Assembly (NCBI RefSeq): GCF_000373925.1
Contig: NZ_KB892753.1
Coordinates: forward strand, 32,957-96,956
DNA length: 64,000 nt
Source of the DNA: Actinopolymorpha alba DSM 45243
GTDB taxonomy: Bacteria > Actinomycetota > Actinomycetes > Propionibacteriales > Actinopolymorphaceae
Direction of reading: 5' to 3'
Shown: positions 3,328 through 63,823 of the stretch, piece by piece
Numbering within the stretch: position 1 is the stretch's first letter
Layout of the letters: each line of letters opens with the position of its first letter
Translations under genes and position numbers: made by a program
The notes under the pieces: generated by a model
Seen by the model: the letters and a program-made list of their open reading frames with translations, nothing else
Databases searched by the model: none
Told to the model about the DNA's origin: nothing

Positions 3328-4815
3328 GTGACCGACCTGCTCCTGGTACTCGACCGCCGCCGCGGCCACCTCGCGACCCAGTTGGCGAGTGAGTTACGCG
3401 CGGCCATCCGGTCTGGCCGGCTGGCACCGGGCCTACGCCTCCCGGCCACCCGCACACTCGCTCGCGACCTGGGCGTCTCCCGGGGCGTGGTGGTGGAGGC
3501 GTACGACCAACTGATCGCGGAGGGCTTCCTCGTCGCGCGGCAGGGCGACTGCACGCGGGTCGCCTCACCGGGCGCGGTGCCCGCTTCGCCACCGGCACCC
3601 GTTTTGCCACCGGTGCCGGTCCCGCAATCGGCGCCCGCTCCGCATTCGCGGCCCACGCTCCAGCGGGCCTCCAACGCACGGCCGTCCACCCGACCAGACC
3701 TGTTCCGGCCGTACGGCCGCGAGGTGCCGCGTTACGACCTGCGGCCAGGCACGCCCGATCTCGCCGCGTTCCCGCGCCAGCGCTGGGCGAGCCTGGTACG
3801 CCGGGTGCTCAACGACCTCCCGGCCGACGCCCTCGGCTACCCCGATCCCGCCGGCGTTCCCGCATTGCGGGCCGGCCTCGCGGCGTACCTACGCCGGGTG
3901 CGGGCTGCCCAGGCTGAAGCGACGCAGGTGGTGGTCCTCAGTGGAGTCGCCCAGGGGATCGCCGCGCTGGCCAGCCTGCTCCGCCGACGGCACGAGTTGC
4001 CGGTCGTGGCGATCGAGGACCCGTCGTCACCGGGTGAGCATCAGGTCCTGCGGGCTGCCGGCATCGAACCCATCGGCGTACCCGTGGACGACGAGGGCCT
4101 GGACGTCGAGTACCTCAACCGAACCCGGGCGCACGCGGCCCTCGTCACACCCGCCCATCAGTACCCCACCGGCGTGGTCCTCTCGCCCCGCCGCCGCGCT
4201 GCCCTGGTCGCCTGGGCCCGGGAGCGGGACGCGCTGATCATCGAAGATGACTACGACGCGGAGTTCAGGTACGACCGGGAACCCGTCGGCTGCCTACAGG
4301 GGCTCGCCCCCGACCACGTCGTACTCCTCGGCTCCGTCAGCAAGTCGCTGGCGCCCGGCTTCCGGATCGGCTGGGCGGTCGCGCCGGCGGAGGTTGCCGC
4401 GGAGTTGGGTGCGTACCGCGCCGTGAGCGATCTCGGCAGCCCGGTGCTCGAACAACACACACTGGCCGCGATGCTCTCCGAGGGCTATTTCGATCGGCAT
4501 GTGCGGACGATGCGGCGTACCTACCGCGCCCGCCGGGACGCACTCGTCGGCGAACTCACCACCCGCCTGCCATGGGCGCCGATCCGCGGTGTCTCGGCTG
4601 GCTTGCATGTGTACGTCGACCTGGCCGATCTCTCCGAGGACGCCGTGGTGTCCGCCGCACGCGAACGCGGAGTCGCCGTCGAGGGTGGCCGGTCCACCTG
4701 GCTCGCCGCGGACAACCCGCCGCCGGCACTGATCCTGGGCTACGCCCGCCTCCCCGAACGCCGGATCGCCGAGGCGGTAGCTCTACTGGCCGAGGTATGT
4801 CCGCCGCGAACGTAG
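3328..4815 (+). CDS. MocR/PdxR-type regulator (GntR HTH fused to aminotransferase fold)
   Basis: This 495-residue protein has a GntR winged helix at about residues 12-78 (LPATRTLARDLGVSRGVVVEAY), a Pro/Ala-rich linker, and a fold-type-I aminotransferase domain from about 130. The PLP-binding motif SVSKSLAPGFRIGW is intact, so it should bind PLP through its Lys, as does the EDDYDAEF Asp motif. MocR proteins sense PLP or PLP-amino acid adducts and act at divergent promoters; the likely target is the adjacent EamA exporter. GTG 3328 is chosen because AGGA lies 5 bases upstream and the family start (D-LL-LD) follows at once. Confidence 0.88.
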   Translation: MTDLLLVLDRRRGHLATQLASELRAAIRSGRLAPGLRLPATRTLARDLGVSRGVVVEAYDQLIAEGFLVARQGDCTRVASPGAVPASPPAPVLPPVPVPQSAPAPHSRPTLQRASNARPSTRPDLFRPYGREVPRYDLRPGTPDLAAFPRQRWASLVRRVLNDLPADALGYPDPAGVPALRAGLAAYLRRVRAAQAEATQVVVLSGVAQGIAALASLLRRRHELPVVAIEDPSSPGEHQVLRAAGIEPIGVPVDDEGLDVEYLNRTRAHAALVTPAHQYPTGVVLSPRRRAALVAWARERDALIIEDDYDAEFRYDREPVGCLQGLAPDHVVLLGSVSKSLAPGFRIGWAVAPAEVAAELGAYRAVSDLGSPVLEQHTLAAMLSEGYFDRHVRTMRRTYRARRDALVGELTTRLPWAPIRGVSAGLHVYVDLADLSEDAVVSAARERGVAVEGGRSTWLAADNPPPALILGYARLPERRIAEAVALLAEVCPPRT

Positions 4816-4886
4816 AGCCTGCAGCAGCATCGCCCGCCCGCATCACCGACTTGTCCGAAGTTTGCTGGTTGTCAAACGCAGGCGTC

Positions 4887-4996
4887 ATGATCATGAAGGA
4901 TTCTCGTCGCTATTTGACCAAAATCTTTCATGATCCTCGAATACCCACGATCCAAATGCCCAGGTCTCAGCATCCGGGCGGGCAGGGTGTACGCCA
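4887..4996 (+). repeat. Dispersed 110-base non-coding module, copy 1
   Basis: Aligned without gaps to the reverse complement of 41311-41420, 84 of 110 bases agree. The first 60 bases and the last 30 are well conserved; a 20-base core (about 4947-4966) is not. Differences fall on all codon positions, so it is not a conserved peptide. The start is a perfect 12-base palindrome TCATGATCATGA (4885-4896), and GATCATGAAGGATT can pair with AATCTTTCATGATC near 4922-4935. Confidence 0.75.
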
Positions 4997-5178
4997 TGTG
5001 AGACGGCTGGGACTTCGCACGCCAAATCGTCACTATGCAAGGTGAATTGAGCTTGCTTGGTGGGGAGATGCCGCGTGAGGTCGTGGCCGTCTCGAATGGC
5101 GTACACCTGACCGTATCGGATGCTGAGAAACCAGGCCCGTGCCTCAAATCCTGGGCGGAACTGAATAGGCCCTGCTTC

Positions 5179-5233
5179 GAACCTTGAGTAGATGCCCAGT
5201 TCTGCGTGCAAACTGGGCATCTACTCAAGGTTC
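5179..5233. repeat. Perfect hairpin, 23-base arms, 9-base loop
   Basis: Arms at 5179-5201 and 5211-5233 are exact reverse complements (GAACCTTGAGTAG ... CTACTCAAGGTTC). There is no T-tract on either side. It lies about 165 bases past the protease stop on that gene's strand, and could be a 3'-end element for it. Confidence 0.9.
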
Positions 5234-5395
5234 AACAAGCACGAGCCCGCCAGCCCAGCCCGCTGACGCGGAGACGATCGGGCGACATCACTCACCGAGA
5301 CGTCAAGGCGAGCCTGCGAGCAGTCCGGTGAGGGCTGTCGCCCGATCGACCCCGCCCCAACAATCAGCCAGCGCCGCACCCCGCGCGAAACCGGG

Positions 5396-6277
5396 TCAAC
5401 GAATCGGCGAGGCCGGAGAGTCGAATCGCGCGATGACATGCTTCGCCTGGTTGATCGGGATGGCGAAGCCGAGGCCGGCGTACGCGGACCTGTCACCTGA
5501 AGCGGACGGCGAATAGATCGCCGAATTCACGCCGATCACTTCGCCGGCGAGATTGAAGAGCGGTCCACCGGAATTGCCTGGATTAAGCGGCGCATCGGTT
5601 TGGATCGCCCGGTAGGTCACGGTCTCACCAACTGAGGTCAGGCCCGGACTGCCAACCACCCGCACCCGCCGGTCGAGCGCGCTCACGATACCTGCCGTGA
5701 CGGTTTCCTGAAGCCCTTCGGGCGAACCAATCGCGACGACCGACATGCCCACCCGCGCCTTCGAGGAGTCGCCGAGTTTGGCGGGAGTGAGCCCGCCCAC
5801 GCCTTGGGCCCGTAGCAGTGCAAGGTCTCTCGCGGCGTCGGTCTCGACAATCTTCACATTGGCGGAACGCCCGCTGCTGAAGCGAACCGCGGCCTGCCCG
5901 CCGTACCGCGTCCGCGCTATGACGTGGTTGTTGGTGAGGATCAGGCCGTCCGAGGTGAGGATGATGCCGGAGCCGGTCTCCTGCCCGTCAGCGGATCTGA
6001 CGTCCACTTCCACCACGCTCGGCGAGACGTCAGACACCACGCGCGCGATCGGCGTACGCGTCACCGCTTCCGTGGGCACAGAGCCGTCGACGTTCGGCGC
6101 GTCCGCATCCCCTGCCTGGCTAGCCCCCAGCGCCCCGCCCACGAGGCCGCCCGCCATACCCGCGCTCAACGCGACCGCGGCGAGGAGGGCAGCGAGCCGT
6201 CCGGTTCCCCGATCTTTCCGGGTGGGCCGCCACCATCGGCCCTTACCCGGTTGGGTTGGGTTCGGCGTCTCGCTCAT
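5396..6277 (-). CDS. Membrane-anchored trypsin-like serine protease (S1C, DegP/HtrA-like without PDZ)
   Basis: The 293-residue protein has a basic N-terminus, one hydrophobic anchor (about 27-52) and a trypsin-fold domain from about 77. The triad is His118 (TNNHVI), Asp151 (ARDLALL) and Ser236 (GNSGGPL). The substrate-loop segment IQTDAPLNPGNSGG is typical of HtrA proteases. The usual C-terminal PDZ domain is missing: the protein stops about 35 residues after FAIPIN. It should act outside the membrane on misfolded or signalling proteins. The start is preceded by a G-rich stretch (GGGGAAT). It is a stand-alone gene followed by hairpin-rich sequence. Confidence 0.9.
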   Translation of the reverse strand: MSETPNPTQPGKGRWWRPTRKDRGTGRLAALLAAVALSAGMAGGLVGGALGASQAGDADAPNVDGSVPTEAVTRTPIARVVSDVSPSVVEVDVRSADGQETGSGIILTSDGLILTNNHVIARTRYGGQAAVRFSSGRSANVKIVETDAARDLALLRAQGVGGLTPAKLGDSSKARVGMSVVAIGSPEGLQETVTAGIVSALDRRVRVVGSPGLTSVGETVTYRAIQTDAPLNPGNSGGPLFNLAGEVIGVNSAIYSPSASGDRSAYAGLGFAIPINQAKHVIARFDSPASPIR

Positions 6278-23070: not shown

Positions 23071-23118
23071 GAACGCGTACCGCCTACCACCGAACCCACG
23101 GAGAACACGGCCTACGTA

Positions 23119-23153
23119 GAACGCGGCCCAGGCAAACTGCCTGGGCCGCGTTC
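23119..23153 (+). terminator. Hairpin terminator after the glycosidase operon
   Basis: Arms 23119-23134 and 23138-23153 are perfect reverse complements (16 bases, starting GAACGCGGCC) with a 3-base loop. It begins 48 bases past the last stop. There is no T-tract, as is common for actinobacterial terminators. Confidence 0.7.
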
Positions 23154-23180
23154 CACGTCCCCGGCCGCGCCGCCCCGGCC

Positions 23181-37305: not shown

Positions 37306-37339
37306 CCCGTAATGATCACGTTTACGTGATCATTACGGG
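37306..37339 (+). repeat. 34-base ATGATCACGT-family palindrome
   Basis: Perfect 16-base arms (37306-37321 and 37324-37339) around TT, flanked by CCCGT / ACGGG. It is the reverse complement of 23239-23272 but for one base. In both places the same strand of the element is the sense strand of the gene it follows. Confidence 0.92.
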
Positions 37340-40858: not shown

Positions 40859-40927
40859 ACCAGGCGGCGCCTCTGGTCCAGGATCCGTGATTCGCAGGCG
40901 TCCCGGTGGCAACCCAACCCGGGGGGT

Positions 40928-41029
40928 TCGTTCTGGGTCGGGGGCCTCGGGCTCGTTCTTCGGCCAGGGGGCGCGGGCTCATTCTGGGTCGGGGGCACCC
41001 TCGTACGGCTCTATTGGCCAAGGGGGCCC
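40928..41029. repeat. Degenerate 25-26-base tandem repeats
   Basis: Units begin at 40928, 40953 and 40979, each containing TCRTTCT ... GGGGGC, with a looser fourth (TTGGCCAAGGGGGC) near 41013. They follow the lysozyme gene by about 70 bases. Confidence 0.7.
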
Positions 41030-41083
41030 CTCACCCAGATGGAGGCCTATTCAAAACCCTCACGCCGACAGGTCGCGGCATCG

Positions 41084-41162
41084 TGAAGGTTGCGGGAGGC
41101 GACTTGGCGGAGGTGCCTCGGCTTCTTTGCCGAAACTCCTCCGCCAAGTCATCGCAACCTCA
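41084..41162. repeat. Nested hairpin A
   Basis: AGGTTGCG (41087-41094) with CGCAACCT (41153-41160), GACTTGGCGGAG (41101-41112) with CTCCGCCAAGTC (41139-41150), and inner TCGGC (41118-41122) with GCCGA (41129-41133). Stems are exact, separated by internal loops. Confidence 0.85.
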
Positions 41163-41194
41163 GTGGGCGATCGCCATAGCGAGCAACTCTCGAC
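41153..41194 (+). repeat. 42-base dispersed repeat, copy 1
   Basis: About 36 of 43 aligned bases match 47711-47753 in the same orientation with one gap. Its first eight bases are also the right arm of hairpin A. Confidence 0.72.
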
Positions 41195-41200
41195 TCAGAC

Positions 41201-41267
41201 CAAGATCATTGTGGAGAAGTGGCCCACGCCCGCGCGGAATGTGGGCCACTTCCCCGAAATGATCTTG
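41201..41267. repeat. Nested hairpin B
   Basis: CAAGATCATT (41201-41210) pairs with AATGATCTTG (41258-41267) and GAAGTGGCCCAC (41216-41227) with GTGGGCCACTTC (41241-41252); both stems are perfect, separated by a 5 x 5 internal loop. No T-tract. Confidence 0.88.
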
Positions 41268-41310
41268 AGCGCAGCGGGTTGTCTCGCACTCCGGACTACT
41301 GGCGGCGCTG

Positions 41311-41420
41311 TGGCGTACAGCTTGCCCATCCGGATGCTGAGACATCAGACCAAGGAGTCCGGGCATTCGAGGATCGGTAAGGATCTTGGTCACACAGCGA
41401 CGAAAATCCTTCGTGATCAT
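41311..41420 (-). repeat. Dispersed 110-base non-coding module, copy 2
   Basis: Reverse complement of 4887-4996 with 84 of 110 bases identical and no gap. Here the module starts at 41420, 31 bases past the minus-strand stop of the dehydrogenase gene, so it would be in its 3' untranslated RNA. Confidence 0.75.
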
Positions 41421-41450
41421 GGCGGCCGGGCCAGAGGTGCCCAGCAGGAC

Positions 41451-63500: not shown

Positions 63501-63558
63501 GCGTGAGTTGTCAGAGGTATCTCGGTCTCTTAACCGAGAAACCTCTGACAACTCACGC
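63501..63558. repeat. Near-perfect hairpin, 26-base arms
   Basis: GCGTGAGTTGTCAGAGGT (63501-63518) pairs with its exact reverse complement at 63541-63558; after one A-A mismatch TCTCGGT (63520-63526) pairs with ACCGAGA (63533-63539). The loop is six bases. It starts five bases past the YibE/F stop and has no T-tract. Confidence 0.9.
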
Positions 63559-63706: not shown

Positions 63707-63823
63707 GTCCGGCGGTGTCCTACTCTCCCACGCGGTCCCCCACGCAGTACCATCGGCGCTGAAGAGCTTAACTTCCGGGTTCGGAATGGGACCGGGTGTT
63801 TCCCCTTCGCCATGACCGCCGTA
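63707..63823 (-). rRNA. rrf: 5S ribosomal RNA
   Basis: The complement reads TACGGCGGTCATGGCGAAGG at its start, CCCATTCCGAACCCGGAAGT in loop regions and ends CCGCCGGACA, the usual bacterial 5S sequence of about 117 bases. Both ends are estimated to within a few bases. Confidence 0.95.

Follow-up and report, generated by a model that had tools for sequence, protein, structure and literature searches.

The 110-base match that links two distant gene gaps of the window (the whole 64-kb stretch of DNA analyzed here) consists of two abutting repeats, a hairpin that we term A and one end of a longer palindrome, B. On balance, we favor the reading that A is a REP/BIME-like repeat, lying here beside a B end, that would fold as a 3′-end hairpin, with a predicted role in terminating or protecting transcripts arriving from either side.

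Two abutting repeats in the window

Positions 4887-4996 on the plus strand and 41311-41420 on the minus strand share 84 of 110 bases in an ungapped alignment (E = 1.4e-16 by BLAST against the whole genome). The runner-up ungapped 110-nt match elsewhere within the window reaches 54, which confirms as real the gapless, oppositely oriented match reported in a preliminary description of this DNA. Identity is unevenly distributed along the match, with 46/55 bases conserved in the left block, 10/23 in the middle and 28/32 in the right block. Searching the 110 bases against the whole genome (8.0 Mb, 127 contigs) revealed 40 matches with E ≤ 0.001, most of which cover the left block alone and some the right block alone. 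Because the genome matches are mostly confined to single blocks and B has copies of its own, the match represents two adjoining repeats rather than the single 110-base module initially proposed; when A copies are compared pairwise, the points at which homology stops also cluster at the ends of A. The block identities further indicate that the 20-base variable core of that description, although indeed weakly conserved, is the spacer between two different repeats and not the core of one unit.

The first copy of A occupies 4883-4941 (plus strand), with a 47-nt core running from GATC to GATC at 4889-4935. It is followed by a spacer at 4942-4964 (plus strand), which the block identities show to be poorly conserved between both window copies, and then by palindrome B at 4965-5128. 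B spans 164 bp and comprises two directly adjoining 82-nt arms that are 71% complementary; the right block corresponds to the first 32 bases of B. A palindrome of family F with 23-bp perfect arms lies at 5179-5233, and an inverted repeat whose 30-nt arms are 87% complementary and separated by 28 nt lies at 5268-5355. The second copy of A lies on the minus strand at 41366-41424 (core 41372-41418), accompanied by a fragment of the B end at 41311-41342 (minus strand) and by palindromes of family E (41201-41267) and family D (41101-41150).

Both copies fall in gaps between convergent genes (4816-5395 and 40859-41450), as called by our home-made codon-score gene finder, and further inverted repeats adjoin them, in agreement with the earlier placement of the copies beside such repeats in gene-free gaps. 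The earlier judgment that the match does not encode a peptide holds as well, the region being non-coding, repeated and structured. No T-run terminator-like site was detected at A within window positions 4700-5500. When the window was compared with Rfam 15, only 5S rRNA reached its gathering score, and no known structured RNA was found at A.

Copies, stem and palindrome mosaic of family A

Hairpin A (47 nt, GATCRTGAAGGAT...ATCCTTCAYGATC) occurs at 46 distinct places in the genome, as determined with a covariance model (R1) after removal of second-strand rows. The model was built from 30 copies, and its search of the own genome scored 150 of 2748 candidates. Alignment A3 contains 45 rows and omits an internally shortened copy (C48:72676). 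In these 45 rows, the stem comprises 19 pairs with 94.6% of cells paired, and eight pairs are changed on both sides, in 24 such cells. None of 500 shuffles did as well as the real alignment in paired percentage, in covariation score or in how many pairs or cells covary. A single pair (columns 11-49) holds half of the covarying cells, and its covariation may reflect a subfamily difference. The genome search and covariance model suggested in the preliminary description thus yielded both further copies and covarying stems; because these exist, the grounds it had named for abandoning the observation do not apply.

When each window copy was folded by itself as DNA, 6 of 200 shuffles did as well as the first copy and 42 of 200 as well as the second, so that the latter folds no better than shuffled sequence. 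G.U pairs in A were tolerated with a strand bias when counted by cells (42 vs 19), not when counted by pairs (13 vs 11), and the bias was absent from the wider alignment (22 vs 28). Strand-specific G.U tolerance was judged weak and set aside. In most of the 45 rows, the tetranucleotide CGTC is found within the stem, close to the tip, and the consensus that follows the stem is CTNGAA, not a T-run. A half-copy of A, consisting of the 5′ arm and tip only, was observed at C99:18917-18951; we saw nothing to suggest that a larger element ends there.

The outer arms of A are shared with a sister family. The pattern GATCRTGAAG...CTTCAYGATC matched 50 places in the own genome and none for its backward control, and 45 of the 50 span exactly 47 nt, with spans of 38-65 nt allowed. 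Sorted by eye, these places comprise 22 A copies, 26 members of a second family with a different core, one member of a third family (J) and one other. Most of the 26 sister copies (L305-L327, L169 and L178 among them) carry a left extension resembling GTGATCATGATCGT. The one other outer-arm match, at C73:153505, measures 61 nt and lacks a palindromic core.

Strong palindromes are concentrated in particular gaps of this genome, where many of them belong to repeat families. A census of 424 kb (360 kb plus the window) identified 27: convergent gaps (11.9 kb) hold 11, tandem gaps (49.7 kb) 12 and stretch ends four, with none in coding sequence (333 kb) or divergent gaps (23.6 kb). Shuffling the gaps, in three rounds, produced no strong palindromes. 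Of the 46 copies of A, 15 have palindrome C ending 8-40 nt to their left; on the right side, E starts at +95-115 in six copies, B at +78-90 in six, and D in 13 at either of two distances. Another module is present within 700 bp of 38 of the 46 copies and absent from this range for eight, and the linkers between modules are conserved within groups of A copies. A is therefore one module of a BIME-like mosaic and is met in recurrent combinations at preferred distances. Such spacings point to composite units and not to insertions that arose independently.

Other palindromes were noted in the window. A perfect palindrome (CCCGTAATGATCACG/CGTGATCATTACGGG) at 37306-37339, between convergent genes, resembles the arms of family H, a family with 14 places in the 424 kb. 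A family I palindrome (GAGTTGTCAGAGG...) at 63501-63558 lies 4 bp past a called gene end and ahead of the 5S rRNA gene (63707-63823), and a strong palindrome (ACGTAGAACGCGGCCCAGGC...) at 23114-23158 lies 43 bp past a stop codon between convergent genes. In this GC-rich genome, GATCA or TGATCA recurs near the arm ends of the otherwise different families A, C, E, H and K.

Gene context and related hairpins in other actinomycetes

Copies of A are absent from gene interiors (0 of 45 classifiable copies, one further copy being at a contig edge); two overlap called gene ends, by 11 and 14 bases. Of the 45, 22 occupy tandem, 18 convergent and five divergent gaps. Convergent and divergent gaps account for 13% and 28% of intergenic bases, respectively, in 360 kb chosen regardless of repeats. 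Relative to this background, A shows an excess in convergent gaps (p 6.6e-6) and a deficit in divergent ones (p 0.008). Within their own gaps, A copies are mildly attracted to stop codons: 16/45 lie within 80 bp of one (10.95 expected, P 0.04) and 9/45 within 40 bp (6.8 expected, P 0.21), while 29/45 are more than 80 bp from any stop. A weak preference for the sense strand was also observed (27/40, p 0.04). The 26 sister copies comprise 12 tandem, six convergent and four divergent, with one overlapping a gene end and three at stretch ends; 13 of 22 lie within 80 bp of a stop codon (8.7 expected, P 0.008).

A plain DNA search detected A in none of five same-genus genomes. Among 292 other genomes of the order, model R1 identified related hairpins in at least seven; of these, G195 is doubtful, its match being unconvincing by eye. 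Since 13-18 candidates were scored per genome in the order, phylum and class model searches, a missing match carries little weight in them and the counts are minimum values. The sole R1 match among 395 other genomes of the phylum sample (G382) is a palindrome with other arms and was rejected as a relative.

A pattern scan of named genomes revealed multi-copy AGGAT-box hairpins in three of them, namely Kribbella catacumbae, Nocardioides sp. SYSU D00065 and Mycobacterium hubeiense. Other mycobacteria carry one or two copies, and pattern matches in the remaining groups appeared to be due to chance. The contexts of 27 AGGAT-box hairpins were 11 convergent, 10 tandem, four divergent, one inside a called gene and one at an edge. 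In M. hubeiense, five of the six hairpins with a called context lie 3-32 bp past a stop codon. Members of the M. hubeiense (G687) family (L094, L118, L119, L120, L123, L126, L224-L234) carry AGGATT in the stem and the tip GCCACTATKTGRC.

A gap-free alignment of 33 hairpins (A2) showed 16 of 20 pairs changed on both sides, its rows being hand-picked: eight from the own genome, five R1 matches and 20 from a pattern that already demanded AGGAT and part of the tip. The model derived from it (R2) matched at least 38 of the 393 other class genomes, and among the matches listed at least 21 genomes score 40 bits or more with their best match. With R2, unrelated hairpins in 424 kb of the own genome reached at most 29.2 bits, so matches near the threshold are doubtful. 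We examined 74 R2 places in 29 genomes, drawn from more than 150 rows, many of these rows showing the opposite strand of a place already counted. Tandem gaps hold 34 of the 74, convergent gaps 32 and divergent gaps one; six lie over a gene 3′ end and one at an edge. Of 67 such places, 51 lie within 80 bp of a stop codon, against 46.9 expected from a gap background taken from the same loci (P 0.07).

A stricter pattern, GATCRTSAAGGAT N17-27 ATCCTTSAYGATC, matched 11 of 394 genomes and 4 of 138 genera, with 17 places in the own genome (G000), 21 in G738, 11 in G796, six in G757 and one or two in each of seven others. Among the matches listed, none came from the backward control, and the span was 47 or 48 nt (43-53 allowed) except in two shortened copies of the own genome. 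The cores of these matches are variable, the arms being fixed by the query. Hairpins alike in length and arms thus occur at gene ends of other actinomycetes.

Two further candidates for signals shared across genera were dropped. The tip GYCRCTATNTGRC alone exceeded its backward control in the own genome (36 places vs 4), in G687 (12 vs 4) and in G003 (3 vs 1). In most other genomes the control was equal or higher, with 5 vs 8 in G107, 2 vs 4 in G688, 4 vs 4 in G689, 4 vs 3 in G690, 1 vs 3 in G004, 1 vs 2 in G007, 0 vs 2 in G001, 0 vs 4 in G009 and 0 vs 0 in G215; on these counts, the tip was not relied on as a cross-genus signature. The sole match to palindrome B in another genus (G016) lies inside an open reading frame and was discarded as chance.

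Relation to known repeats, spread and function

The BIMEs of enterobacteria are mosaics in which palindromes are combined with other repeat motifs at gene ends. Hairpin A shares this organization and differs in its sequences and in having mosaic partners that are themselves palindromes of several families. REPs, as presented in parts of PMC3733652, are sorted into superfamilies tagged by GTAG or CGTC and are biased toward convergent and same-direction gaps; the main text of that paper does not contain the word "actinobacteria". Like the REPs described in those parts, A is a short extragenic palindrome with tens of copies, belongs to one of several families in its genome and lies mostly in convergent or same-direction gaps. 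In contrast to them, no row of A starts with GTAG (0/45) and only one starts with CGTC (1/45, the first window copy), the foot being GGCC/GGCCAT-like and the consensus GGCC. The stem of A is also longer (about 20 pairs, 47-48 nt), and the Y1 genes scanned yielded no RAYT. Since neither tag is present as a rule and no RAYT was found, we did not assign A to either superfamily. Sections of PMC8355165 report hairpin clusters without U-tracts as terminators in other bacteria, and A resembles these in being a hairpin, often clustered, behind stop codons and without a U-run. The terminators in those sections are defined by position and structure, whereas A belongs to repeat families with shared sequence and its terminator role is predicted. 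In the open-access literature, surveyed mostly at outline level, we recognized no description of these actinomycete hairpins.

Of nine Y1 matches in the genome, seven were scanned (excluding L037 and L040), and none is a RAYT: the RAYT model gave 19.9-25.4 bits in five (cut-off 80) and no match in two, and six exceed the IS200/IS605 cut-off while one fragment falls below it. Five Y1 matches neighbor IS605 OrfB. The A copy nearest to a Y1 gene is 1.4 kb away, and none lies closer than 1.3 kb. A RAYT/REP pair is thus unsupported, as no scanned Y1 gene attains the RAYT cut-off. Identical flanking words of 3-8 bases are not enriched at the 46 copies of A at any of the boundary offsets tried, which gives no sign of target duplication, and no autonomous partner was seen among the Y1 genes and with one B-end pattern.

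MITEs include large palindromes such as YPAL of Yersinia, and A resembles them as a dispersed short inverted-repeat element without genes. A, B, C, D and E could accordingly be nested or chained MITEs without host function, found behind genes because insertions elsewhere were lost. The dispersed multi-copy palindromes with sharp homology ends, and the several families joined in mosaic chains in one genome, speak for this explanation. We nevertheless regard it as rather unlikely: in a limited look A showed neither the target duplications nor the partner transposase of a MITE, the preferred module spacings suggest composite units, and other families of the class have hairpins with the same arms and length at the ends of their genes. 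The mobile element considered in the preliminary description accords with the copy number and dispersal and sits poorly with the same two absences. Its alternative of a small structured RNA would fit the covariation and the gene-end position.

It is also conceivable, with a low probability, that the hairpins are ordinary terminators by descent or convergence, nothing being mobile and the likeness of copies arising from shared constraint or gene conversion. Covarying stems, the position behind genes, the M. hubeiense copies just past stop codons and the U-tract-free terminators noted in PMC8355165 would be expected under this explanation. The linkers beside A are conserved as well, 29/45 A copies are more than 80 bp from a stop codon, 5/45 lie in divergent gaps, and the families are patchy, none of the five same-genus genomes having matched the DNA query, all of which argue against it. 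Least probable, and by our estimate highly unlikely, is that the 47-48-nt unit serves as a double-stranded DNA site, recognized through its inverted 13-base arms, two of them at a fixed distance, by a protein that might be, for example, a recombinase or a nucleoid or segregation protein. The near-constant spans of the strict-pattern matches listed, with variable cores and two shortened own-genome exceptions, and the 47-nt spacing of 45 of the 50 own-genome outer-arm places are consistent with such a site. The stem pairs between the arms covary too, however, which a two-arm site would not need, and the gene-end bias is strong.

Under the favored reading, A as a REP/BIME-like 3′-end hairpin, the RNA would form a hairpin with about 20 pairs whichever strand of a copy is transcribed. 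Such a hairpin could halt RNA polymerase or block 3′ exonucleases, and A would thereby act as a 3′-end hairpin in both directions, a role predicted from sequence and position. A may have spread by copying as a non-autonomous repeat, through some enzyme or recombination, after which copies were presumably retained mainly behind genes. The mildness of the stop-codon attraction, for A and for the class-wide places, the divergent location of 5/45 A and 4/26 sister copies, the folding of the second window copy, the absence of a T-run terminator-like site at A in 4700-5500, the concentration of half of the covarying cells in one pair, the weak sense-strand preference and the inconsistent strand bias of G.U pairs stand against this reading.

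More tentatively, A may belong to an actinomycete superfamily of gene-end palindromes, a broader proposal that we put forward as possible. Its members would be 47-48 nt long, with conserved 13-base arms (GATCRTSAAGGAT) and a variable core, and would have spread across several families of the class in the absence of a RAYT. They might be read by a dedicated protein, which could be a transposase or a factor in termination or RNA processing, and they might mark 3′ ends in genomes where U-tract terminators are scarce. If these readings are correct, they would provide concrete gene-end sites in high-GC actinomycetes at which to examine termination or RNA protection, offer a sequence handle toward the protein that reads these hairpins, and extend REP-like repeats to actinomycetes.
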